From a virus, in the IMG/VR virus record IMGVR_UViG_3300032516_000189, positions 1 through 25,054 of that record: a DNA stretch of 25,054 nucleotides; one strand, given 5' to 3'. This document shows positions 4,782 to 24,584 of this stretch, in pieces. The notes under the pieces are model-generated. The model searched no databases. It saw nothing but the letters and a program-made list of their open reading frames with translations, and was not told the origin of the DNA. A program made the translations under genes and the position numbers. How positions within the stretch are numbered: position 1 is the first letter of the stretch; every line of letters starts with the position of its first letter.

Positions 4782-5207
4782 ATGGCTAATAAAATATATA
4801 ATAAATGTAAAGATTTAATGATAAGACAACAATTAAATCTAGTCTCAGATACACTTAGAATTATATTAGTTAATTCTTATACACCAAATATTGATACGCA
4901 TCAATATTATTCAAATGTATCTGCATATGAAGTTAATGGAACAGGATATACTACAAATGGTCAATTAATAAGTGGATCATCTTTTACGAGAGATGATGTT
5001 AATGATAGAATAGAATTTGATGCTCAAGATAATGTATGGGAGAACTTAACAACATCGACAAATGGTGCTATTATATATAAAAGTTTAAGTGCAACTAATA
5101 TTTCTCCACTAGTCGCATTTATAGATTTTAATGGTACAAAAGTAGCAAGTAATACTAGATTTAAGATAGAGTGGAGTAATGAGGAAGGTATAATTTATTT
5201 AACGTAA
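4782..5207 (+). CDS. Virion structural protein, copy 1 of a tandem pair
   Basis: A 141-residue beta-rich protein of a type recurring in tailed phages: an N-terminal MANKIYNKCKDLMIRQQLNL, then DTLRIILVNSYTPNIDTHQY, then GAIIYKSL and a closing AFIDFNGTK...FKIEWSNEEGIIYL strand set. The next gene has the same layout (Y.FNNFKSKLMKG...GAVIYKR...AIDFGSKK...FTISWNTEGIL), so the two are diverged paralogues. Function in the particle is unproven; small surface or decoration protein are options. Placed directly before fibre and neck genes and probably translated in one transcript with its neighbours. Confidence 0.8.
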   Translation: MANKIYNKCKDLMIRQQLNLVSDTLRIILVNSYTPNIDTHQYYSNVSAYEVNGTGYTTNGQLISGSSFTRDDVNDRIEFDAQDNVWENLTTSTNGAIIYKSLSATNISPLVAFIDFNGTKVASNTRFKIEWSNEEGIIYLT

Positions 5208-5227: not shown

Positions 5228-5668
5228 ATGGCAAGTTATGTTTTTAATAATTTTAAAAGTAAATTGATGAAAGGAACATATAACCTTTCAGCAGCCAATA
5301 ATACATATAAAATTGGATTAATTAATGTTTCAGCTTTTAATCAAACTAATCCAGATGATACTGAATTTTGGAATTCGGTTTCTGCAAACTGGTCGATTAC
5401 GGCTGATCCAGGTTATTTAGCTCAAAATTATATTGATAGAGGATTGTCAGGAACAAATGTATCATTAGCACTGGTAGCAAATGAGGCTAGATGGAGTGCA
5501 ACAAATGTAACATGGGCAAGTTCTACTATTGATGCTAGAGGAGCAGTAATTTATAAAAGAACGGATAGTTCATTAATTTGTGCTATTGATTTTGGAAGTA
5601 AGAAAAGCTCATCTAATGGAGATTTTACAATTTCATGGAATACTGAAGGTATTTTAAACCTAGGATAA
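5228..5668 (+). CDS. Virion structural protein, copy 2 of a tandem pair
   Basis: A 146-residue paralogue of the preceding gene. It shares the N-terminal helix pattern (FNNFKSKLMKGTYNL), the central WASSTIDARGAVIYKR segment and the C-terminal DFGSKKSSSNGDFTISWN end, with an insertion in the first half (FNQTNPDDTEFWNSVSANW). Start set by GAGGAGG at 5216-5222. It is the last gene before a strong intrinsic terminator, so the two copies may be made in excess over the fibre genes beyond. Exact particle role unknown. Confidence 0.8.
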   Translation: MASYVFNNFKSKLMKGTYNLSAANNTYKIGLINVSAFNQTNPDDTEFWNSVSANWSITADPGYLAQNYIDRGLSGTNVSLALVANEARWSATNVTWASSTIDARGAVIYKRTDSSLICAIDFGSKKSSSNGDFTISWNTEGILNLG

Positions 5669-10303: not shown

Positions 10304-11971
10304 ATGCCTTTTACTGCTGGTGATATTCTAGGAATATTAACAGGAGGATTACTAGGAAATGTAGTCCTTCCGTTTGATTATTTTACTGATGGTTGGTTTG
10401 AATTTACTAGTGGTGATGTTGTAATATCTCCTAGTACAATAGATTTAACAGGCATAGTTGTTAATCCTAATCTTAATATTTCATATGTTGAATCTATATC
10501 TATTACTACACTTAATTTTACACTTAATGATAATTCCGTTTATGGAAGTGCTATAATATTACCGAATCCAATAGATAATACTTTATATGTAATAAATCCG
10601 ATTATAGGTGAAGGATATGGAATTATAAATTCTATATCGGGAATTAATCTAGATTCAATTATAAACAATCCTACAATAATTCAAGGACAAGGTAATACAG
10701 AAACCATATCAACTATTAATTTTGCAACTAGTATAATTGATCCATCAATTGCTGGAAATGCATTAATTGATTTAGATATAATTGGAATTGGAACTTCATT
10801 ACCATCTATAAGTGCTAGTGTTGGTCAAGGAAATATAGAATCAGCAAATGCATTAACAATGACATTGGATACTTTAAATCCAAGTATATTATTATCGTCT
10901 ATACTTTATCCAAATCCTGTTGATTTAAATTTAGTTATTTATGAACCAGATATTTTTGTAAATGGAGGTATAATAGTTTACATTAATACTCTTAATTTGA
11001 CTACTTATACTGTTCCAAATGGATTACAAGTTATAATGAAACTAGATGGTCCTGGTAATTTTACTCATATCTATAATATTTCTAATAGTGGAACAGATAT
11101 TAGTAATATATTATCAGCCGTTCCAAATAGTGTTTTATTAAGTGGAACAATAAATGATTTGAATTATATAGAGACTGTTTATCATGTAAGTGGAACAGAA
11201 CTAGATTTAATAGTGCCTCCATATGAAAAGATTCATACATCATTATTTGGAGATTTTGCAACAGGATATGGAATGGGTAACGGAACAAATATGGTTAATG
11301 GATGGATTACAAAATGTGATGATAGTCAATTTTATAATAATGAAAGAAAATTATTTGATAATTTAATAACAGAAGCTTACAACTTACATGGTGTTTGTAT
11401 GGATTATTATATTACATCTTATAATAAAAATTATGATAAGGTATGGGGAGAAGATAATAATAGATTTTTTGAAAGAAAATTCCCTGTCAATGTTTATTAT
11501 ATGTTACCTAGAGAAGAAAAAATGTGGTCTAAATTTGGTATTCAAGGAGTTGATACTTTTAGCATGTATATATCAAAATTACATTTTAGAGATACTTCAA
11601 CTATAGGTATGAATGAAGTTGCTGGAGATATTGGACAAGGTACATATAATTCATATATTCCTCAAATTGGAGATATTATAAGATCAGAATATAATAATTA
11701 TATATATGAAATAACTGAAGTAAAAGAAGAAATAGGAATGTTTTTATTATCTAAACAACACATATGGGAATTAATTGTGAAAACTTATAAAGATGAACAC
11801 ATATCATTGTCAGCTACAACATCGGCAGGAATGGCAGAAATTTCTGCTGTTACAAATAAATCAAGTGATATGTTTAATATTTCTAGTGTTATAGATACTA
11901 AAAAAGTACCAATTAAATACGTTTCAAAAAATTTTGAAAAACCTAGTAACGATCCATATGCAGGATGGTAA
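10304..11971 (+). CDS. gp14: gp14-like neck protein with long beta-repeat extension
   Basis: A 555-residue two-part protein. Residues ~305-555 match the T4 gp14 neck family, which with gp13 completes the head at the portal for tail joining: GVCMDYY, VWGEDNNRFFERKF, SKFGIQGVDTFSM, then GDIIRSEYNNYIYEITEV, parallel to T4 GED..KF, FGMQVQD and GDLIYFPMDNSLFEI. The following gene is a close paralogue of this half. Residues ~1-300 are extra: beta-rich repeats with recurring Ile-Ser-Thr-Ile/Leu-Asn and Pro-Asn-Pro turns (IISINSIS-like units, NPIDNTLYVINP, NPVDLNLVIYEP). The extension could form collar or neck decoration. T4 gp14 is about 256 residues, so the extension is unusual. The next gene starts three bases after the stop. 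Confidence 0.8.
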   Translation: MPFTAGDILGILTGGLLGNVVLPFDYFTDGWFEFTSGDVVISPSTIDLTGIVVNPNLNISYVESISITTLNFTLNDNSVYGSAIILPNPIDNTLYVINPIIGEGYGIINSISGINLDSIINNPTIIQGQGNTETISTINFATSIIDPSIAGNALIDLDIIGIGTSLPSISASVGQGNIESANALTMTLDTLNPSILLSSILYPNPVDLNLVIYEPDIFVNGGIIVYINTLNLTTYTVPNGLQVIMKLDGPGNFTHIYNISNSGTDISNILSAVPNSVLLSGTINDLNYIETVYHVSGTELDLIVPPYEKIHTSLFGDFATGYGMGNGTNMVNGWITKCDDSQFYNNERKLFDNLITEAYNLHGVCMDYYITSYNKNYDKVWGEDNNRFFERKFPVNVYYMLPREEKMWSKFGIQGVDTFSMYISKLHFRDTSTIGMNEVAGDIGQGTYNSYIPQIGDIIRSEYNNYIYEITEVKEEIGMFLLSKQHIWELIVKTYKDEHISLSATTSAGMAEISAVTNKSSDMFNISSVIDTKKVPIKYVSKNFEKPSNDPYAGW

Positions 11972-11974
11972 TAA

Positions 11975-12838
11975 ATGGCTAATATAATTGTTAGTGCTGA
12001 TACTACAGATATGAATTTTTCAATATTAAGTGCAACACCAGAATTTTCGATTTCTGTTAGTTCGACTAATTTAAGATTATTTGTTCCTGCATATGAAGAA
12101 GCATTTACTCCAATGTTTCATGATTATAAAGGACAAAATTATAGCATGGGAACAGGCACAAATTTAAGACACGGATATATTACTAAATGTTCTCCTACTT
12201 ATAATAATGAAAGAAGATTGTTTGATTATTTTTTAGTAGAATCTTACAATCATCATGGAGTATGTATGACTTATTATATAGCGTCATATAATAAAAATTA
12301 TGATAAGATTTGGGGTGAAGATAATTATAGATTTTTCGAAAGAAAATTTAATTTTATGGCATTTTATTCTTTACCTAGAGAAGAAAAAATGTGGTCTAAG
12401 TTTGGTATTCCTGGTATGGATAGATTTAGTATATTTTCTTCTAAATTACATTTTAGAGATGCATCAACTTTTGGATTTAATTCAGTTAAAGGAAATATTG
12501 GACAAGGTACTTATCCTACTTATATTCCTAAAATGGGAGATATTATTAGGTCTAAATATAATAATTATCTTTATGAAATTGTAGAATTAAAAGAAGAAAT
12601 AGGAATGTATTTATTATCAAAACAACATGTTTGGGAATTTATAGTTGCTCCTTATAAAGATGAACATATATCATTATCAGCTACGACTTCAACATCTATG
12701 AATGAAATATCTGCTTATACAAATAAATCAAGCGATATATTTAATATTTCTAGTGTTATAGATACTAAGAAAGTACCTGTTAAATATGTTCCTAAATCGG
12801 GGGAACATCCAAACAATGACCCGTTTGCAAACTGGTGA
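11975..12838 (+). CDS. gp14: gp14-like neck protein, standard length
   Basis: A 287-residue protein close to the usual gp14 size. From about residue 35 it aligns end to end with the C-terminal half of the preceding protein: YNNERRLFD, HGVCMTYYIASYNKNYDK, WGEDNYRFFERKF, LPREEKMWSKFG, GDIIRSKYNNYLYEI, LLSKQHVWEFIV, YKDEHISLSATTS, VIDTKKVPVKYV. Both end NDP(Y/F)A(G/N)W. The short N-terminal 34 residues (ADTTDMNFSILSATPEF) are a remnant-length version of the beta repeats in copy 1. Expected role is head completion at the neck. Having two versions suggests either a mixed ring or one copy taken over for another site. It ends TGG TGA, confirming TGA as stop. Confidence 0.85.
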   Translation: MANIIVSADTTDMNFSILSATPEFSISVSSTNLRLFVPAYEEAFTPMFHDYKGQNYSMGTGTNLRHGYITKCSPTYNNERRLFDYFLVESYNHHGVCMTYYIASYNKNYDKIWGEDNYRFFERKFNFMAFYSLPREEKMWSKFGIPGMDRFSIFSSKLHFRDASTFGFNSVKGNIGQGTYPTYIPKMGDIIRSKYNNYLYEIVELKEEIGMYLLSKQHVWEFIVAPYKDEHISLSATTSTSMNEISAYTNKSSDIFNISSVIDTKKVPVKYVPKSGEHPNNDPFANW

Positions 12839-15592: not shown

Positions 15593-16126
15593 ATGAATTT
15601 TAATGATTTTTATAATTTAGAATTATATGAAATAGATTTATCAAATCTTTCTTTATTAAGAGAAATGGATAAAGAAGATTTAATGAATAATACCGATCCA
15701 AAGAGAGTAGAGAGAGCTAGAAAAGAATTAAGGACTAGACCTCCTAAAGTTACAGTAATGGATGATGGTATTGAGAGAGTTGAATATAATTTTAAAGCTA
15801 ATCCTACAGTAGAATTTAGAAACCATTGGGGATATTGTGATCATAAAGATGATGATATAGTAGAGCTTTTTTGTGATTGCAAGGATTTCTTTTTTAGATT
15901 ATATGCACCATTGGTTAAAGCAGGAATTGCTAAATATAAAGTTCCTCCTAAATTTGTTAAAAGAGGAAATATGTTAAATGGTCTTCCTTTAGCTGCTCCA
16001 CCACCAAAATCAACTGGATATGGTGGAATATTGCCACATAATAAGCAATGGACTAAAAAGACTAATCCTAATGGAACTTTATATGTTTGTAAACACTTAT
16101 ATGCCTTACTATCAGATTATATATAA
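15593..16126 (+). CDS. SWIM-type zinc-finger protein
   Basis: A 177-residue protein with the SWIM signature CxC...CxH: C94-D-C96 in ELFCDCKDFFFRLY and C166-K-H168 in TLYVCKHLYALL. The cysteines and the CKH pair are ~70 residues apart, a long insert for the family; the insert is Pro/Lys/Gly-rich. SWIM domains bind zinc and usually mediate DNA or protein contacts. Residues 36-60 are Arg/Lys-rich (PKRVERARKELRTRPPK). The N-terminal MNFNDFYNLELYE faintly resembles the capsid-targeting leaders of nearby genes, but not enough to call. Location between fibres and small head-associated genes suggests a virion or DNA-packaging accessory role. Its stop lies in the next late promoter. Confidence 0.75.
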   Translation: MNFNDFYNLELYEIDLSNLSLLREMDKEDLMNNTDPKRVERARKELRTRPPKVTVMDDGIERVEYNFKANPTVEFRNHWGYCDHKDDDIVELFCDCKDFFFRLYAPLVKAGIAKYKVPPKFVKRGNMLNGLPLAAPPPKSTGYGGILPHNKQWTKKTNPNGTLYVCKHLYALLSDYI

Positions 16127-16153
16127 ATAATTATTAAAGGGAGATTATTATAT
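16121..16153 (+). promoter_or_regulatory. Late promoter with a small start-masking hairpin
   Basis: TATAAATA lies at 16122-16129, overlapping the TAA of the SWIM gene; predicted start near 16135. ATATAAATAAT (16121-16131) can pair with ATTATTATAT (16144-16153) with one bulged A, loop 16132-16143 holding AAGGGAG, and the 3' arm covering the first two bases of ATG 16152. Same layout as at 179 and 1005 but all A-U, so the hairpin may be chance. Confidence 0.55.
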
Positions 16154-16553
16154 GAGTTATAAAGAATATTTAATAGAAAAATTAAACGAAGAAGTAGAAG
16201 ATTGGAAAGAAGTATCGGGACAAAAAATTAGATCATCTATTAAAAATGATCTTCAATTAAAAAGTGGGGATGTAATTCCACAAGGAACTAATATTGAATT
16301 TGTTTTTGTTGAAAAAGATAGACAATATAGAATTAAAATAATTAAAACAGATAATGCTCAAGTTAAAGTTCCTATTTTATTAAAAGCATATAATCAAAAT
16401 ATTAAAGCTATTAATAAAATACCTAGTGAAAATACATTAGGAAAATATGTAATGGATGGAAATACTAAAACTGTTACAGGAAAAATTACGGATCCAGATT
16501 CAACAGCAACAGATGGTTCACCATCTTGGTTATTAGTATTAGGAATGATTTAA
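16152..16553 (+). CDS. Small protein with capsid-targeting-like N-terminus
   Basis: A 133-residue protein that starts MSYKEYLIEKLNEE, close to the leader of the gene at 2580 and to T4 internal-protein leaders; L-x-E cleavage sites fall after E9 and E13. The rest has strand-rich segments (GTNIEFVFVEKDRQYRIKII, AQVKVPILLKAY) and a C-terminal Asp/Thr-rich stretch before LLVLGMI. No enzyme motif. Clear AAGGGAG fixes the start. The neighbouring gene at 16570 has a related leader but an unrelated body. Candidate head-internal protein processed by the gp21-type protease; function after delivery unknown. Confidence 0.75.
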   Translation: MSYKEYLIEKLNEEVEDWKEVSGQKIRSSIKNDLQLKSGDVIPQGTNIEFVFVEKDRQYRIKIIKTDNAQVKVPILLKAYNQNIKAINKIPSENTLGKYVMDGNTKTVTGKITDPDSTATDGSPSWLLVLGMI

Positions 16554-16569
16554 ATAATAAGGATATAAA

Positions 16570-16968
16570 ATGAAATTTAAACAATATTTAAAAGAAAGAC
16601 TTATTATTGAAGAATTAACTTTGTTGGAAGATGAAGTTGAAACTAAACCTCTTGATAAAAAATTTATTATCAAATTGATGAATTATTTAGAAAGTCTTTT
16701 TCCTTCGTATGGAGATTTTGATAATAGCATGAGTGTTGAATTAAGTAAATATGTTAAAGGTGATATTAAAGATGTTAGAAAATTAAAGAAAAGAATTCAT
16801 GAAATTATTTTAAGACTTAAACATAAACTTATAAGAGATACTCAAACTAAAGTTGAAAAATTAACAGCCGAACCTAAAACACAAGAAGGAAGTAAACCAC
16901 TAGAAAAATTAATACCAAAATCTGTTCCTAGTCCTATGGAAATTTTAGATAGAGGTTATAATGGCTAA
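16570..16968 (+). CDS. Small helical protein with capsid-targeting-like N-terminus
   Basis: A 132-residue, Lys/Glu-rich, helical protein beginning MKFKQYLKERLIIEEL, with possible L-x-E/I-x-E sites at E9 and E14. The middle (KKFIIKLMNYLESLFPSYGDF; DVRKLKKRIHEIILRLKHKLI) is amphipathic and basic, like T4 internal proteins, which are basic and DNA-associated in the head. Overlaps the next gene by 8 bases, so translation is probably coupled. Packaging is inferred. Confidence 0.75.
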   Translation: MKFKQYLKERLIIEELTLLEDEVETKPLDKKFIIKLMNYLESLFPSYGDFDNSMSVELSKYVKGDIKDVRKLKKRIHEIILRLKHKLIRDTQTKVEKLTAEPKTQEGSKPLEKLIPKSVPSPMEILDRGYNG

Positions 16969-17760: not shown

Positions 17761-18546
17761 ATGCTTGTATCAAAAAAAATTAAAGTTAATTTACATCCAA
17801 GAAATATAAAGTATTTTGAATCTTTAGGATATATAATACCTAGATTTTTAGATAAATGGGGAAGAATGGTTGTAATTAAAGGAACAAAATTAGAAGTCAA
17901 TATTAAAGATTTAATGAAAAATTCTCCTATTAAAGTATTAAGAAGGTGTGATAATTGTGGTGAAATAAAAAAAATTTCATGGATGAATTATTTCGATAGG
18001 TGTCAAAAATGTGCTAGAACAAAATATACACTTGATAATGTTATAGAAATTTTTAAAAAAGAAAATTGCAAATTATTAAGTTTAACCTATAATAATGTAT
18101 ATGAAAAATTAGAATATATTTGTAATTGTGGAAATAAATCAATTATAACATTGAGTAATTTTTTAAATGGACATAGATGTAATATATGTGGCTTAGAAAA
18201 ACGTATAGAATCTTCAAGGAAAAAAATAACAGAAGAAGATAGATTACGAGCAAAAAATGAAAAAAGAGAAAGAACTAAATTAGAACAACAACGATGGAAA
18301 AATATAATTAAAAGAAGAGATAATTATAAATGTCAAATATGTGGATATCAAGGTAAATTGCTTGATAATTTCATGAATGCCCATCATATAGAATCTTTTT
18401 TAAATAATAAAGAATTAAGATTGGATATAAATAACGGAATAACATTTTGTCATAAATGTCATAGAAAATTTCATAATAAATATGGAATTAAAAATAATAA
18501 TGAAAAACAGTTTAATGAATTTTTATTAATTGAAAAAGGAGTATAA
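17761..18546 (+). CDS. Free-standing HNH homing endonuclease, second copy
   Basis: A 261-residue HNH nuclease. The N-terminal ~90 residues parallel those of the first one (KIKVN..., GYIIP, EVNIKDLMKNSPIKV, RRCDNCG, CQKCARTKY). Residues 91-145 form a different module (LDNVIEIFKKENCKLLSLTY ... YICNCGNKS ... GHRCNICG), a zinc-ribbon repeat type known from phage endonucleases of the DUF723-like class. The C-terminal HNH core has C191/C194, H208-H209, N224/N225, C230/C233, H234 and H238. Domain swapping between the two genes is therefore visible. It lies in the gap before the portal gene; its last codons supply the portal's AAGGAG, and only three bases separate the two genes. No late promoter precedes it. 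Confidence 0.9.
   Translation: MLVSKKIKVNLHPRNIKYFESLGYIIPRFLDKWGRMVVIKGTKLEVNIKDLMKNSPIKVLRRCDNCGEIKKISWMNYFDRCQKCARTKYTLDNVIEIFKKENCKLLSLTYNNVYEKLEYICNCGNKSIITLSNFLNGHRCNICGLEKRIESSRKKITEEDRLRAKNEKRERTKLEQQRWKNIIKRRDNYKCQICGYQGKLLDNFMNAHHIESFLNNKELRLDINNGITFCHKCHRKFHNKYGIKNNNEKQFNEFLLIEKGV
18426..18433 (+). promoter_or_regulatory. Possible late promoter inside HNH gene, before portal
   Basis: Exact TATAAATA followed by ACGG, within the HNH codons for DINNG, about 120 bases before the portal ATG. Such octamers also occur by chance in AT-rich coding DNA, so only weak support; it would give the portal gene a promoter independent of the endonuclease. Confidence 0.25.
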
Positions 18547-18549
18547 CAT

Positions 18550-20373
18550 ATGGACCTTTCCAAGATTTTTTTGATGAACCCCTTTTCTAAATTTTTTAGA
18601 GCAGCTAGAGTAAGTACGGGTGAAGAAAGAAAAGAAAATGAAGAAATTCTAAATAGCCAAGGTGCTTCTCAAGAAGAAATCGATTTCGGAAGGTTTGCAA
18701 ATTACGAGGGATTAGAAGGACTTGGTAGTGGTGGATTAACCTATATAGGAATTCAATTTGAACAATTCTTTGCAAACAAAGCGGCTAGAATCGGTAAGTA
18801 TAGAGAAATGTCTTTATATCCTGAAATTTCAGATGCGTTAGATCAAATATGTGATGAAGCTATTCAAGAAAATGATACCGGAGAAATTGTATCATTAGAA
18901 ATTAAAAAAGAAATGCCAGAACATATTGAAGAAGAAGTTCGTAAACAATGGAAATATATTCTCAATGATGTTTTTTCTTTTAATGCTAGAGCATGGGATT
19001 TATTTAGAAAATGGTTAGTCGATGATGAATTATATGTAGAAGTAATAAGTGATAAAAATGGAGATAATATAATAGGAATTAAAATATTAGCTCCACAAAC
19101 TGTAATGCCTATCTATGTAGAAAATACAATTAAAGGCTTTATGCAGACTAGTCTTCCTAAAAAAGATGTAAATGAAGTTGCATCTTCATCGGTTGAAAAT
19201 GCTACTGTAATGTTTGATAAAGATCAAATTGCATATTCTAATTATGGATTGTATGGACAAAACTTTTTGGATGTAAGAGGATTTTTAGAATCTACAATCA
19301 GAGTATATAATCAATTAAGAAACTTAGAAGATTCATTAGTTATCTATAGACTAGTTCGTGCGCCAGAAAGAAGGGTATGGAATATTAATGTTGGTAAGAT
19401 GCCAAAGGGAAAAGCTGAAGAATATATTAAAGGACTTATTCAAAAATATAAGAAAAGAATTATATATGATACAAATACTGGTGCAATGAATTCTGCTCAA
19501 AATGTTCAAGCTTTAACAGAAGATTTTTGGTTTGCAAAAAATGAAAATGGAGAAGGAACATCTGTAGATACAATTGGTGGAGGAATGAATTTAGGAGAAT
19601 TAGATGATGTTAATTATTTTCTTCAAAAAATGTATAAGACTTTAAAGTTACCTAGATCAAGATGGGAAGATCCTGCTAATAGTGTTTATTCATCTGGTAA
19701 GTCAGGTGAAGTTGTAAGGGAAGAAATTAAATTTTCAAATTTTGTAGGAAGACTTCAAAATAGATTTAAATATATTCTTATTGATCCATTTTTAACACAA
19801 TTGAGAATGCAAGGTATAGATCCAATGTATATAAATGATTCTATTTATAATGTAAGTTTTACTAGATCAAATTTATACAGAGAATATAAAGAAATGGAAT
19901 TAACAGAATCTAGATTTGCATTATTAACAACTATGAATGATTTTGTTTTTAGTGATGAAAATCCACAAGGATATTTTTCTAAAGAGTTTATACTTAAAAA
20001 ATATTTCTTAATGTCAGATGAAGAATGGGATGAAAATCTTAATGATTTAAGAAAAGAAAAGTTACAAGCTTCTGAAGCAAAAGCAGAAGGTGGTGAAGAA
20101 GGATTTGGTGGTGAAGAAGAAGGTGGTGAAGAAGGTGGAGGAGAATTTGGAGGTGGTGGTGAAGAAGCACCAGCAGAAGGTGAAGCGGCACCTGAAAAAC
20201 CTACTACACCAGAGGAAGAATTACCAGTAGCTCCAGAATCTACTAATATTGAATTTGGTAAAGAAAGCGATGATGATACTGAGATTTTTAAAAACTGGAT
20301 GAAAGATGATAAAACTATACAAAATAAAAAAAGAGATAATAGTTTATTATCAAAAGGGGATAAAATTATTTAA
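18550..20373 (+). CDS. gp20: Portal vertex protein (T4 gp20 type)
   Basis: A 607-residue portal, against about 524 in T4. The dodecameric portal nucleates prohead assembly, docks the terminase for packaging and later joins the neck. Hallmarks: KAARIGKYREMSLYPEISDA (~residues 77-96), the WDLFRKWLVDDELYVEVI region, VYNQLRNLEDSLVIYRLVRA followed by PERRVWNINVGKMPKGKAEE, and KLPRSRWEDPANS. Residues ~512-560 are an added Gly/Glu-rich low-complexity tail ending in an acidic/Lys segment. Ribosome binding site AAGGAG lies in the end of the endonuclease gene. The gp20-gp67-gp21-gp22-gp23 order downstream is that of T4, here interrupted by two GNAT-like genes. Confidence 0.95.
   Translation: MDLSKIFLMNPFSKFFRAARVSTGEERKENEEILNSQGASQEEIDFGRFANYEGLEGLGSGGLTYIGIQFEQFFANKAARIGKYREMSLYPEISDALDQICDEAIQENDTGEIVSLEIKKEMPEHIEEEVRKQWKYILNDVFSFNARAWDLFRKWLVDDELYVEVISDKNGDNIIGIKILAPQTVMPIYVENTIKGFMQTSLPKKDVNEVASSSVENATVMFDKDQIAYSNYGLYGQNFLDVRGFLESTIRVYNQLRNLEDSLVIYRLVRAPERRVWNINVGKMPKGKAEEYIKGLIQKYKKRIIYDTNTGAMNSAQNVQALTEDFWFAKNENGEGTSVDTIGGGMNLGELDDVNYFLQKMYKTLKLPRSRWEDPANSVYSSGKSGEVVREEIKFSNFVGRLQNRFKYILIDPFLTQLRMQGIDPMYINDSIYNVSFTRSNLYREYKEMELTESRFALLTTMNDFVFSDENPQGYFSKEFILKKYFLMSDEEWDENLNDLRKEKLQASEAKAEGGEEGFGGEEEGGEEGGGEFGGGGEEAPAEGEAAPEKPTTPEEELPVAPESTNIEFGKESDDDTEIFKNWMKDDKTIQNKKRDNSLLSKGDKII
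20085..20165 (+). repeat. Low-complexity GGN-GAA repeat in portal C-terminus
   Basis: A run of GGT/GGA and GAA codons encoding Gly-Glu-rich units (GGEEGFGGEEEGGEEGGGEF). The simple-sequence DNA is likely prone to length change by slippage. It codes for a flexible acidic linker absent from T4 gp20. Confidence 0.8.
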
Positions 20374-20382
20374 GGAGATATA

Positions 20383-20928
20383 ATGAGTTATATAGAATGT
20401 TTAAATAATTTAATTACTGAAAATAATTTATCTAATGAAATTAAAGATTTAAAATTTCGTGATGAAGTTGTTGGACATCATAACGGTCAAACAGATTTTA
20501 TACTTTATGCTATTCTTAATAATAAAGCTGTGGGAACAACTGAATATGTAGAATTTAATAAAATTCCTTCTATTTCGATGATTAAAGTACAACCATCTTA
20601 TAGAAGATTAGGTATTGCAAAAAATATGGTAAGATATATACAATCACAATATCCACAGAAAGAAATTGAATGGGGGATGACAACTCCTGAAGGGACTGCA
20701 TTATATCAATCAATTAAAGATGAATTATATGTTGATAAAGAAAAAATACTTTTAAAGAAAAAATATGAAGATTTAGTTTTAGAAAGAGATAAATTAAAAA
20801 AGGCTATGGATGATTTATATAAAAAATTTGATACTAATCCAGATAAAATTAGAAATAAAATTAAAGAATTAAATGACAGATTTGTTGTTGTTGATGATGA
20901 AATTTATGAATTAGAAAAAGAAATTTAG
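20383..20928 (+). CDS. GNAT-like acetyltransferase with capsid-targeting-like leader
   Basis: A 181-residue protein. Residues 65-80 (SMIKVQPSYRRLGIAK) match GNAT motif A, the acetyl-CoA pyrophosphate loop (R-R-x-G-x-A at 74-79), after a strand region (FILYAILNNKAVGTTEYVEF). A catalytic residue cannot be picked out. Residues ~117-180 form a charged coiled coil (KKKYEDLVLERDKLKKAMDD). The N-terminus MSYIECLNNLITEN resembles the leaders of the other candidate internal proteins, with an I-x-E site after E13. It stands between portal and protease, where T4 has only gp67 and gp68. Acetylation of a host or virion target after packaging is inferred, not shown. AAGGAG precedes the start. Confidence 0.75.
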   Translation: MSYIECLNNLITENNLSNEIKDLKFRDEVVGHHNGQTDFILYAILNNKAVGTTEYVEFNKIPSISMIKVQPSYRRLGIAKNMVRYIQSQYPQKEIEWGMTTPEGTALYQSIKDELYVDKEKILLKKKYEDLVLERDKLKKAMDDLYKKFDTNPDKIRNKIKELNDRFVVVDDEIYELEKEI

Positions 20929-20936
20929 AATAAATA

Positions 20937-20944
20937 TATAAATA
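20937..20944 (+). promoter_or_regulatory. T4-type late promoter, near-leaderless start
   Basis: Exact TATAAATA in a 27-base gap. T4 spacing puts the transcript start near 20950, only about six bases before the ATG at 20956, with no room for a ribosome binding site. Either the mRNA is almost leaderless or this octamer serves the genes further down. Confidence 0.5.
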
Positions 20945-20955
20945 ATAATAAGACT

Positions 20956-21393
20956 ATGAGTTATATAAAATATTTAACACAACATTTAGAATATTTTAAT
21001 TTTCTAAATGAAGACATAATGAATGAAACAGATTTAAAAGAGGCAAATATATTTGCCGAAGATAATAATGTTTTAATATATGATGATAAGAAATTGATAA
21101 CCATAGTAAAAGAATCTAGTTCAAATAAATTGATTGGAGCATTGTGGACTTCTTGGAATGTGAATGAAGAATTTTCTTTTGAAACAATTGTTGATGTAAA
21201 ATATGGAAATATGGGAATAGGTTCTAGATTAGTAGATGAAGCAATTGAGGAATATAATTTTGAATCTAAAAAATATAAAAATCCAAAAATGAGAATGCAA
21301 GTTATTTCTCAAGTTATGGAAAAGATGTTATTGAAAAGAAATTTTAAAATAGAAAGTGTTGCTCCAGGTAGAAAAATAATGATAAGAAAATAG
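20956..21393 (+). CDS. Second GNAT-like protein with capsid-targeting-like leader
   Basis: A 145-residue protein. Residues 73-95 (FSFETIVDVKYGNMGIGSRL) carry the GNAT acetyl-CoA loop G-N-x-G-I-G (84-89) after a strand, and a C-terminal KMLLKRNFKIESV end typical of the fold. A strand pair (NVLIYDDKKLITIVKE; KLIGALWTSW) precedes it. The N-terminus MSYIKYLTQHL shares MSYI with the gene before and an L-x-E site after E19 (FLNE). No good Shine-Dalgarno lies before the ATG (only AAG), unlike nearly all neighbours. Two different GNATs side by side inside the head operon is unusual. Enzyme activity and target unknown. Confidence 0.7.
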   Translation: MSYIKYLTQHLEYFNFLNEDIMNETDLKEANIFAEDNNVLIYDDKKLITIVKESSSNKLIGALWTSWNVNEEFSFETIVDVKYGNMGIGSRLVDEAIEEYNFESKKYKNPKMRMQVISQVMEKMLLKRNFKIESVAPGRKIMIRK

Positions 21394-21404: not shown

Positions 21405-21590
21405 ATGGATTCGGTTATTAAAACAATTTTGGATGGTGATTGGACAGAGATGAAATCTTATTGTGAAAAGAAGTTGGCAGAAAAAACAACAGAAAGAATT
21501 AATGATAAGAAAATCGAAGTATTGGCAAAAATTAATGGAGTTGATGTAGAAAAACAAAAGGAAATAATGGATATTTCAAAGGGAGAATAA
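21405..21590 (+). CDS. gp67: Prohead core protein, gp67-like
   Basis: A 61-residue protein. MDSVIKTILDGDWTEMKSYC then KKLAEKTTERINDKKIEVLA matches the pattern of T4 gp67 (MEGLIEAIKSNDLVAARKLF..., then AARTIDLIKEEKIAIA), and the gene lies between portal and protease as in T4. gp67 is a minor prohead core component needed for correct head shape and is degraded by gp21. The long acidic tail of T4 gp67 is missing here. GAGGAGG precedes the ATG, and it ends one base before the protease ATG region. Confidence 0.75.
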   Translation: MDSVIKTILDGDWTEMKSYCEKKLAEKTTERINDKKIEVLAKINGVDVEKQKEIMDISKGE

Positions 21591-21591
21591 T

Positions 21592-22257
21592 ATGGCAAAA
21601 CTCTTAACAGAATTTCTCTCATTTGATAAGCTAGAGGTTTTGACAGAGAAAATAGAAAATTCGGAAGAAAAAACATATAAATTGAAGGGTCCGTTTTTAG
21701 AAGCAGAAAGTAAAAATAAGAATGGTAGAATTTATAGTAAAGAAACTCTTATTAGAGAAGTTAAAGATTTTTATGAAACTAAAATCCTAAAGAAAAGATC
21801 AATGGGAGAATTAGATCATCCTGAAAACCCACAAATTAATTTAGAAAGAGTTTCTCATATTATTGAAGATTTAAAAATGGAAGGCAATGTTGGTATTGGT
21901 GTGGCTAAATTGATAGATACACCAATGGGAAGAATCGCACAAACACTAGTCAAAGAAGGTGTAGTTGTAGGAATGTCAACAAGAGGTGTTGGTTCTTTAG
22001 ATGGTGATAGAGTTAAAGAAGATTATAAACTTATAACTGTGGATATAGTTGCTGATCCTTCTGCACCTAATGCATTTGTGGAAGGTGTATTAGAGAATAA
22101 AAATTTTATTATTGGTAAAGATGGCGAAATTGTAGAGGAAGCAATTGAAAATTTACAAAAAGAAGTTGATAAAAAATATAGCGGTAAAGATATGTCACAA
22201 CTAGTTTTGCGTTATATGATGAATTTTGTTAGAGAAATTAGAAGTAAAAAAAATTAA
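21592..22257 (+). CDS. gp21: Prohead maturation protease (T4 gp21 type)
   Basis: A 221-residue serine protease of the T4 prohead class (MEROPS S80), close to the T4 size of about 212. It cleaves scaffold, capsid and internal proteins after (L/I/F)-x-E, and then itself. Catalytic region: GELDHPE with H76, and VVVGMSTRGVGS with S129; the acidic partner is probably in VDIVADPSAP (D151 or D155). The conserved NKNGRIYSKETL segment (43-54) also fits. It would process the leaders of the candidate internal proteins in this window. Ribosome binding site AAGGGAG; start one base after the gp67-like stop. Confidence 0.93.
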   Translation: MAKLLTEFLSFDKLEVLTEKIENSEEKTYKLKGPFLEAESKNKNGRIYSKETLIREVKDFYETKILKKRSMGELDHPENPQINLERVSHIIEDLKMEGNVGIGVAKLIDTPMGRIAQTLVKEGVVVGMSTRGVGSLDGDRVKEDYKLITVDIVADPSAPNAFVEGVLENKNFIIGKDGEIVEEAIENLQKEVDKKYSGKDMSQLVLRYMMNFVREIRSKKN

Positions 22258-22334: not shown

Positions 22335-23132
22335 ATGAGCAAAAAAATTACCGATAAAATTAAAGAAATCTTAACTCCTGAAGACCTTAAAATCTTCGAA
22401 GCAGCATTAGAACAAATGGTGGACGAAAAGGTTGCTTTAAAAGAGGAAGCGATAAAGACTAAATATGATACAATTGCTGAAGAGTATGTACAAAAGAAAG
22501 TTGCAGAAAAACTTGAGGAAGAAAAAGCTAAATTGGTAGAAGATTATGATACAAAATTAAATAATCTTGAAAAGAAGATTGTTACCAAGTTAGATAGTTT
22601 TCTAGATCATGTTATCGTAGAACAAGTTTCTGATGAAGCTTTAGCTAAGATTGCTATTAATGAAGTAGCAAGCCCAATTGTAGAAGCTATTAAGAATATC
22701 TATACTGAAAATTATATTGCTATAGATTCCAATGGTGATAAGAAAGTAAAAGATTTAGAAAAGAAAGTAAAAGAAACTGAAAAAAATCTTTCAGAATCTC
22801 TTGCTAAAGTTATGGAAACTGAAGAAAGATTAGAAAAGACTGCTACTTATCTATTAATTTCAGAGAAAGTAGAAGGAATGACAAAGACACAAAAAGGTCA
22901 AGTTACTAAAATGCTTAAAGATAAATCTTTCGATGAAGTAAAAGAAAAGATTGATACTTTGATTGAAATGGTAAAGAAAGATGGAAAGAAATTAGATGAA
23001 AAAACAGAAGAAAAGAAAGTTATTGATTCTGTTTTGCCTAATGAAGATGTAATAGAAGAAGATAAGAAAATTGTTCCAGATAATGATAAGACCGAATCTA
23101 CATTTGCAGATTATGCTAATAGATATCTTTAA
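22335..23132 (+). CDS. gp22: Prohead scaffolding core protein (T4 gp22 type)
   Basis: A 265-residue, Lys/Glu-rich, almost wholly helical coiled-coil protein, close to T4 gp22 (269). It forms the inner core around which the capsid shell assembles and is then degraded by gp21 to small peptides. The N-terminal ITDKIKEILTPEDLKIFEAA, long heptad stretches (KKVAEKLEEEKAKLVEDYDT; KKVKETEKNLSESLAKVMET) and the end TFADYANRYL suit the family. Between protease and major capsid, as in T4. A strong AAAGGAGG and its own late promoter suit the high copy number. Confidence 0.93.
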   Translation: MSKKITDKIKEILTPEDLKIFEAALEQMVDEKVALKEEAIKTKYDTIAEEYVQKKVAEKLEEEKAKLVEDYDTKLNNLEKKIVTKLDSFLDHVIVEQVSDEALAKIAINEVASPIVEAIKNIYTENYIAIDSNGDKKVKDLEKKVKETEKNLSESLAKVMETEERLEKTATYLLISEKVEGMTKTQKGQVTKMLKDKSFDEVKEKIDTLIEMVKKDGKKLDEKTEEKKVIDSVLPNEDVIEEDKKIVPDNDKTESTFADYANRYL

Positions 23133-23183: not shown

Positions 23184-24584
23184 ATGATTAATAAAGAAAC
23201 CCTTGTTAAGAAATGGGAAAGTGCAGAAGGAAAAATGAGCATTAAGGGAATTAAAGACCCTTATATTAAAGAAAATATGGCACAACTTCTTGAGAACCAA
23301 GAAGCGAAAGATTTTCACGGAGAAGAAGTTTTCACAGAAGCTACACAAGGTAGTATCTCGCATACTAGTTTGGGAACAAATGCTACTAAGTTAGCACAAG
23401 ATGGTTCTTTTGGATATGCGTCACAAGCAGACGGTTGGAAATTCAGACCAGTTGCTCTTGCTCTTGTAAGACGTACATTCCCAGACCTTTTTGCTAATAA
23501 AGTAGTTGGTGTACAAGCTATGTCAACACCTGTTGGTCTTGCTTATGCTCTTCGTATTGTATATCAAAATACAAAACAAGAAGCTGCATGGGATTTGGTA
23601 GATTATTATGGTGGATATACAGGTAGCCAAGTTGGTGTTTCAGGTACATTGGCTGGAGTTTCTGCTCTTGGTAATTATGCTCGTAATACAGGTATTCATG
23701 ATACTTCTGGTATTGGAGCTAGAACATCTGCGGCAGAAGGTTGGACACTTAGCGATGGTTGTAAGTTTACAGCCACTTCTACATCAACTTCGGGTACAGT
23801 AACAACAACTCTTAATAATCCTGCTGGTTGTGGATCATGGCCTCAACTTCAATTGAAGATTGACCAAACAGCTATTGAAGCTAGAACAAGAAAGTTAGCA
23901 GCAAGCTTCTCTCTTGAATCAGCACAAGATATTCGTGCAATGCATGGTATCGACATTGAAAGAGAAATGGTAAATGTTCTTCAATATGAGATCACAGCAG
24001 AACTTGATAGAGAGCTTCTTTATAGAATGAAGAGAGCAGCAACAGATACAAGTAATGGTGGAGCAACAATCTCTGCTATTAACGTAACACCTTCTACAAC
24101 TGGTTTTGGTAGATGGGCTGGTGAATCTTATATGAGCGTAGTTGCTTCTATTATTCACCAAGCTAATAAGATTGCTATCGCAACTCGTAGAGGTGCTGGT
24201 AATTTTGTAGTAGCTTCTCCTTCCGTTATTTCTATTCTTCAAGCCGCAGGACATCAATTTGTACAATATACAAGTGATGTAAAACCTGGCACAATTATGG
24301 CTCAAGTAGGAAAACTTAATGGAACTATTGATGTTTATAGAGATCAATATGCTGAAACTGATTATGCTCTTGTTGGATATAAAGGTAGTGGAATTTCTGA
24401 TACTGGTATTATTTTCAGCCCATATATCATGGGATTGACAAATAGAGCAATACATCCTAATGACTTCACACCAAGAGTAGGTGTTATGGCTCGTTATGCC
24501 ATCACAGACAGCTTACTTGGTGCAGGACGTTATTACAGATTAATTCCTTACTACAATCTTTCAACTATCCTTGCTGGTGCGTAA
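23184..24584 (+). CDS. gp23: Major capsid protein (T4 gp23 type)
   Basis: A 466-residue HK97-fold capsid protein, shorter than T4 gp23 (521). Conserved blocks: ALVRRTFPDLFANKVVGVQA and MSTPVGLAYALRIVY, then LQLKIDQTAIEARTRKLAAS, SLESAQDIRAMHGID, FGRWAGESYMSVVASI, GAGNFVVASPSVISIL, IDVYRDQYAETDYALVGYKG and IIFSPYIMGL. The N-terminal region to be removed by gp21 most likely ends at VFTE52|ATQG, matching T4 LTE|AEIGG. Codons differ from the neighbours (several CGT Arg and many CTT Leu), as expected of the most abundant phage protein. GAGGAGG precedes the ATG. A strong terminator follows. Confidence 0.97.
   Translation: MINKETLVKKWESAEGKMSIKGIKDPYIKENMAQLLENQEAKDFHGEEVFTEATQGSISHTSLGTNATKLAQDGSFGYASQADGWKFRPVALALVRRTFPDLFANKVVGVQAMSTPVGLAYALRIVYQNTKQEAAWDLVDYYGGYTGSQVGVSGTLAGVSALGNYARNTGIHDTSGIGARTSAAEGWTLSDGCKFTATSTSTSGTVTTTLNNPAGCGSWPQLQLKIDQTAIEARTRKLAASFSLESAQDIRAMHGIDIEREMVNVLQYEITAELDRELLYRMKRAATDTSNGGATISAINVTPSTTGFGRWAGESYMSVVASIIHQANKIAIATRRGAGNFVVASPSVISILQAAGHQFVQYTSDVKPGTIMAQVGKLNGTIDVYRDQYAETDYALVGYKGSGISDTGIIFSPYIMGLTNRAIHPNDFTPRVGVMARYAITDSLLGAGRYYRLIPYYNLSTILAGA

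Follow-up and report, generated by a model that had tools for sequence, protein, structure and literature searches.

The window, meaning the whole stretch of 25,054 bases analysed here, is an IMG/VR virus record (IMGVR_UViG_3300032516_000189) of an uncultured T4-like phage. It carries T4-type head genes, namely those for the portal protein gp20 (18550-20373, plus strand; phrog_213, E 1e-118), a gp67-like prohead core protein (21405-21590, plus strand; phrog_1064, E 9e-4), the prohead protease gp21 (21592-22257, plus strand; PF03420, 8e-24, and phrog_207, 5e-58), which is the candidate leader-removing enzyme, a gp22-type scaffold (22335-23132, plus strand; PF25623, 5e-17) and a probable MCP (23184-24584) assigned by position and context. 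A reading of the sequence alone had placed two GNAT-type genes between the portal gene and the gp67-like and gp21 genes, and their coordinates and order were borne out by the ORFs and by the Pfam and phrog profiles: GNAT1 (20383-20928, plus strand) encodes 181 aa and GNAT2 (20956-21393, plus strand) 145 aa.

The gp20-gp21 interval and the GNAT1 cassette

The T4 late promoter motif, TATAAATA, is present in 12 copies on the plus strand of the window and in 4 on the minus strand, and 10 of the 12 sit 19-48 bp upstream of a gene start. One of them (20937-20944, plus strand) precedes the start of GNAT2 by 19 bp. GNAT1 lacks a separate promoter of this kind. In the sister contig L003 the portal gene is followed by this promoter and GNAT2, without GNAT1, and the head genes are otherwise alike. 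According to blastn, L003 positions 1-750 correspond to window positions 19624-20373 and L003 from 753 onward to the window from 20935 onward, so that GNAT1 is contained in a 561-bp cassette (20374-20934, plus strand), absent from L003, that extends exactly from the portal stop codon to the GNAT2 promoter. The sequence-only reading had proposed the recurrence of the pair in related gp20-gp21 intervals as a check, and this went against it: the pair is uncommon there and, among the contigs listed, only near-identical ones have it, the interval of close relatives holding the gp67-like gene alone and that of distant relatives unrelated genes. We have therefore rejected a constant presence of GNATs in this interval; they are accessory genes.

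Other genes of the window are also worth recording. Two 261-aa proteins encoded at 207-992 and 17761-18546 resemble each other at their ends and both have zinc-finger-like cysteines. The second one, located just upstream of the portal gene, has an HNH domain according to Pfam, and both are probably homing endonucleases. In addition, two pairs of neighbouring paralogues (4782-5207 with 5228-5668, and 10304-11971 with 11975-12838) each match a single gene of G002, a 254-kb related record whose gp21 is 72% identical.

Fold and family of the two proteins

The GNAT-like character that had been proposed for GNAT1 was confirmed, as it scored 24.9 bits against PF00583 (cut-off 20.7) and further GNAT models matched too. 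Its acetyl-CoA pyrophosphate loop RRLGIA (R74-A79; 20602-20619, plus strand) follows the Q/R-x-x-G-x-G/A consensus (R74-R-L-G-I-A79), R75 and G77 are the same in all members of an alignment of eight sequences, and the motif B Tyr is present (A-L-Y108). GNAT1 is probably the active enzyme of the pair. The C-terminal part (residues about 119-180) is a predicted coiled coil and is the only confident part of the structure model. The single-sequence models of GNAT1 and GNAT2 had pLDDT values of 63 and 48 and were without a significant Foldseek match, and a sequence search of solved structures with both proteins gave nothing significant, the best GNAT2 match being a putative streptothricin acetyltransferase (E 0.11).

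Fourteen relatives of GNAT1 were found, of which 13 lie within ORFs of 1.5-2.8 k aa and the remaining one in an open frame of 484 aa, and the alignment of the 15 sequences revealed a common core in which most members have the YRRxGIA loop and the GxALY motif. Beyond this phage group, most of the relatives are parts of large proteins. In ten genome-collection contigs, most of them titled as Clostridia genera and MAGs, the relatives are in ORFs of about 1,900-2,800 aa. Others are a domain of a 2,331-aa ORF from a faecal record, an LPD23-domain protein of the Pseudomonas plasmid pPME5, a shorter GNAT protein of a Cupriavidus plasmid and a 1,489-aa protein of the jumbo phage Tunturi_5 that adjoins a minor head protein. 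This Tunturi_5 protein, gp273 (PP885688.1 225802-230271; L017:2294-6763), is annotated as a MutT/NUDIX hydrolase and has a GNAT1-type domain. Polyvalent proteins, giant proteins of conjugative elements that have been proposed to be delivered with the DNA, include two GNAT families, and Mycobacterium phage Alice gp113 is a solo member of the second one (Iyer et al. 2017; PMC5512222). Because the GNAT1-family profile finds Alice gp113 (E 2.5e-13), GNAT1 can be assigned to the second polyvalent GNAT family, in which it too is a solo protein. It is a solo GNAT with a coiled coil, whereas a polyvalent protein proper has at least two effector domains per polypeptide. Alice gp115 (L116:9243-9671), encoded two genes downstream of gp113 and annotated as hypothetical, matched the same profile at about 1e-12 when the ORFs of that stretch were searched and is another GNAT of this family.

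In the case of GNAT2, the proposed GNAT likeness holds through a relative, while the protein on its own stays below threshold. The only three Pfam matches up to E 10 are all GNAT models, and all sub-threshold (among them PF13508, E 0.009, 16.8 bits against a cut-off of 27, and PF00583, E 0.046). Its relative in G002 (199834-200313, 159 aa), with 32% identity over 130 aa (E 3e-23), exceeds the cut-offs of both PF13508 and PF00583, and this supports the membership of GNAT2 in the fold. The annotated phage collection contained no significant relative of GNAT2 and the NCBIfam search gave noise only; an NCBIfam match to CodY lay far below the family cut-off and was rejected, the GNAT kinship being clear through G002. 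The alignment points to a degenerate acetyl-CoA loop, GNMGIG (G84-G89; 21205-21222, plus strand), where the G002 relative has QGKGVG, and to a Leu in place of the usual motif B Tyr in both proteins, so that GNAT2 lacks the full Q/R-x-x-G-x-G/A loop and the motif B Tyr. Some GNATs function without the catalytic Tyr. As the Q/R of the loop is lost, the activity of GNAT2 appears less certain than that of GNAT1, and with changes at the CoA-loop and acid positions GNAT2 may be a weak enzyme or a binding partner.

N-terminal leaders

In T4, residues 4 and 7 of the capsid-targeting leader (CTS) are the main determinants of targeting, and residues 8 and 10 those of processing (PMC9026906). The IPII and IPIII N-termini read MKTYQEFIAE. 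The sequence-only reading had pointed to MSYI... starts with an (I/L)-x-E site in both GNATs; of this, the shared M-S-Y-I-x-(Y/C)-L and the CTS spacing stand, while the (I/L)-x-E site by itself says little. The CTS-like leader of GNAT1 would comprise residues 1-13, MSYIECLNNLITE (20383-20421, plus strand), with a candidate gp21 site after E13, and that of GNAT2 residues 1-19, MSYIKYLTQHLEYFNFLNE (20956-21012, plus strand), with a candidate site after E19. The alignments of most GNAT1 relatives start at residue 12-31, which places the leader outside the conserved domain, and the G002 relative of GNAT2 begins MNFVEFYENV, with the aromatics at positions 3 and 6 retained. Neither GNAT leader has E at position 9; the later ITE13 and LNE19 are of a site type that is common by chance, since [IL]xE was found at residues 6-25 in 12 of 29 window genes versus 16% of internal 20-mers, and their P1' residue is N or D, compared with A in IPII and IPIII. 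As evidence, the predicted gp21 sites are weak.

We searched gene starts with a strict T4-derived pattern, M.{1,2}[FYW]..[FYW][ILVM].E, and with a relaxed one, corresponding to the targeting half, in which the Glu was dropped and Cys permitted at the second aromatic position, taking positions inside these proteins as the background (a DNA-level pattern was too narrow for use and was dropped). The strict pattern was found in 3/29 window genes (P 2e-6). The relaxed one matched 5/29, both GNATs included (P 6e-7, a value that is partly fitted because Cys was admitted on account of the Cys in GNAT1), and without Cys 4/29 (P 2e-5); GNAT2 fits the targeting half as it is, and GNAT1 only with Cys allowed at the second aromatic. 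In contigs with gp21 51-73% alike, six of 181 genes matched the strict pattern (P 4e-9), and in distant T4-like contigs none of 719 did. As a control, the strict pattern widened to Y/F after the second aromatic picked three of the 278 ORFs of the T4 genome, which are IPII, IPIII and 61.1. Gene 61.1 (L130:18966-19130), annotated only as hypothetical, begins MKTFKEFIKED and matches the targeting pattern of IPII and IPIII in full.

Three further window proteins without assigned function, all encoded on the plus strand, have leaders of this type. The one at 2580-2999 starts with MKKYEEYLLEKLQEE (strict match MKKYEEYLLE), which has a near-perfect T4 CTS spacing, and has a late promoter at 2545; the one at 16152-16553 starts with the CTS-like MSYKEYLIEKLNEE (strict match MSYKEYLIE) and has a late promoter at 16122; and the one at 16570-16968 starts with the CTS-like MKFKQYLKERL, its G002 relative (E 1.8e-23) starting with MKKFQDHYFQES. 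The leader is shared by a number of late genes, unrelated to one another, in this phage and in related ones.

A related observation concerns the scaffold, whose C-terminus (23103-23132) reads ...FADYANRYL. In the same phage, two more proteins, encoded at L007:10958-11317 and L007:11327-12091, begin with MDELQVRIANRYLKEAG and MDFIKCANRYLVEADD, and the G002 relative (E 5e-51) of the second one, a cupin protein, begins instead with the CTS-like MSFKDFVKEAEA. Scaffold-end-like and CTS-like N-termini look as if they were interchangeable targeting signals.

When the 416 predicted genes of G002 were scanned, the leaders were concentrated at 23-25 kb, close to the neck genes, and in a minus-strand island at 195-208 kb (L117, L118), where the relaxed pattern was found in 7/21 genes versus 11/393 elsewhere (P 7e-6, with the bounds of the island drawn post hoc from the hits). 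A GNAT pair similar to that of the window recurs in this island in the same order, far from the head genes. The first gene (200310-200693, minus strand; leader MNFISFYKEN) has a distant likeness only to the GNAT1 family (HMM E 2.3e-5, 18.6 bits), and the next in transcription order is the GNAT2 relative, on the minus strand and with the leader mentioned above. Two genes separate the latter from an ADP-ribosyltransferase of the ART-PolyVal type (PF18760; 198066-198620, minus strand; leader MKFDEYYLTEE), which scored 31.8 bits against a cut-off of 31.2 and, in the DNA search, 30.2, below the cut-off; this is followed by a poly(A) polymerase/CCA-type enzyme (leader MRFEKYYFQET). A search for ART-PolyVal in ten related records was negative in nine of them. 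The island also holds several further proteins without assigned function, and an AAA ATPase is among the further leader genes found at 233-234 kb in G002. The GNATs of G002 (148 kb) and G006 that lie outside leader-gene settings are leaderless, which indicates that the leader goes with the setting and not with the fold.

Proposed role and relation to known systems

In T4, the injected proteins include the ADP-ribosyltransferase Alt (PMC9026906), and IPI-III are injected inhibitors of the GmrSD nucleases (PMC12373910). The explanation that we lean towards, with moderate confidence, is that GNAT1 and GNAT2 are prohead-addressed accessory conflict enzymes, probably injected like the T4 IPs and Alt; packaging, cleavage, injection, acetylation and target are the parts of it that we infer. 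The sequence-only reading had likewise proposed delivery from the head, and the analysis supports its interpretation in part. Both proteins would be expressed late, and the T4 CTS-type leader (an aromatic, two residues, an aromatic and a hydrophobic residue) would bring both of them to the prohead core that is formed around portal, gp22 and gp67. There gp21 would probably trim the leaders, that of GNAT1 after E13 and that of GNAT2 after E19. Once matured, the proteins would be injected together with the DNA and act in the host cell as conflict enzymes, most likely as protein acetyltransferases, in a role corresponding to that of Alt (ADP-ribosylation) and the IPs (anti-restriction) in T4. The kin of GNAT1, being domains of proteins proposed as codelivered with DNA, supports the injected-enzyme reading by homology.

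An alternative that we consider unlikely is that the likeness of the leaders is a coincidence and both proteins are ordinary late cytoplasmic GNAT morons, serving counter-defence or host takeover like Rac of the phiKMV-like phages. The presence or absence of the GNAT1 cassette between sister contigs and the weakness of the gp21 sites would agree with this, as would the numerous GNATs of jumbo phages, which are thought to act like Rac (PMC7824862). However, coincidence does not account well for leaders enriched on unrelated proteins across the clade, for their clustering in G002, for a T4 control in which the strict pattern picks IPII, IPIII and 61.1, or for GNATs elsewhere in G002 and in G006 that are leaderless, and GNAT2 is preceded by a late promoter.

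Less probable still is that both GNATs enter the prohead and act there on head proteins, for example by acetylating core or shell lysines, rather than as host effectors. Their genes do sit between the portal and the core and protease genes, and in relatives leader-bearing genes are found by the neck genes also, so this class of leader might mark virion assembly instead of injection. But L003 lacks GNAT1 although its head genes are otherwise alike, the related pair of G002 is far from the head genes, and relatives of GNAT1 occur in headless conjugative elements and plasmids. Least likely of all is that GNAT2 is a dead GNAT, working as a binding protein that inhibits a host defence as IPI-III do with GmrSD, and that GNAT1 is the sole enzyme. 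The loop without Q/R and the motif B Leu would fit this, but the G002 relative has a normal loop, QGKGVG, and the Tyr is dispensable in some GNATs.

Going back to prohead-addressed, injected enzymes, a broader proposal, which we make tentatively and to which we give slightly less than even chances, is that some T4-like phages carry an "unfused" polyvalent protein, that is, separate leader-bearing acetyltransferases, a polyvalent-type ADP-ribosyltransferase and other enzymes that are loaded into the head and co-injected, and whose members are gained and lost gene by gene. Our data suggest, without proving it, the injection of protein-modifying enzymes along with phage DNA. Injected phage enzymes work ahead of any phage gene expression, and in the literature searched Alt is the sole head-carried modifying enzyme of T4 that is named, so the question of whether acetylation, besides ADP-ribosylation, is delivered along with the DNA becomes directly testable. 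Furthermore, a short leader recognisable in the sequence itself would allow candidate injected enzymes to be listed in uncultured T4-like phages. A search of a limited literature collection found no report of GNATs with capsid-targeting leaders.

Among known systems, the T4 internal proteins IPI, IPII and IPIII are like the GNATs in the aromatic-x-x-aromatic spacing of the leader and in being small accessory genes of variable presence. IPI begins with MKTFKEFTSTTTPVSTITEA (MKTFKEFTSTTTPVSTITE), with the targeting half and a later I-T-E, a layout common to GNAT1 and GNAT2. In contrast, the GNAT leaders are one residue shorter ahead of the first aromatic than those of the IPs and lack the immediate E9/E10 of IPII and IPIII, and the GNATs are enzymes by homology, with a predicted packaging and processing in the head. 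Compared with Alt, they would likewise be head-carried protein-modifying enzymes, with a different chemistry, although the Alt N-terminus (MELITELFDE) is outside the IP-type pattern; the leader-bearing polyvalent-type ADP-ribosyltransferase near the G002 GNAT pair fits this analogy. Rac, which shuts down host transcription (PMC7552054), is also a phage GNAT that acts on the host, but it does so during infection and belongs to non-T4-like phages. Finally, GNAT1 is of the same sequence family as the second family of polyvalent GNATs (Iyer et al. 2017), as are Alice gp113 and gp115, but it is encoded by a solo gene located in a T4-type gp20-gp21 interval, has a CTS-like leader to itself and is not a domain of a giant protein. 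The leader-bearing GNATs thus connect the work on T4 internal proteins with that on polyvalent proteins, and what is new is the combination of polyvalent-type solo GNATs with a proposed T4-type head targeting, both parts of which were already known.
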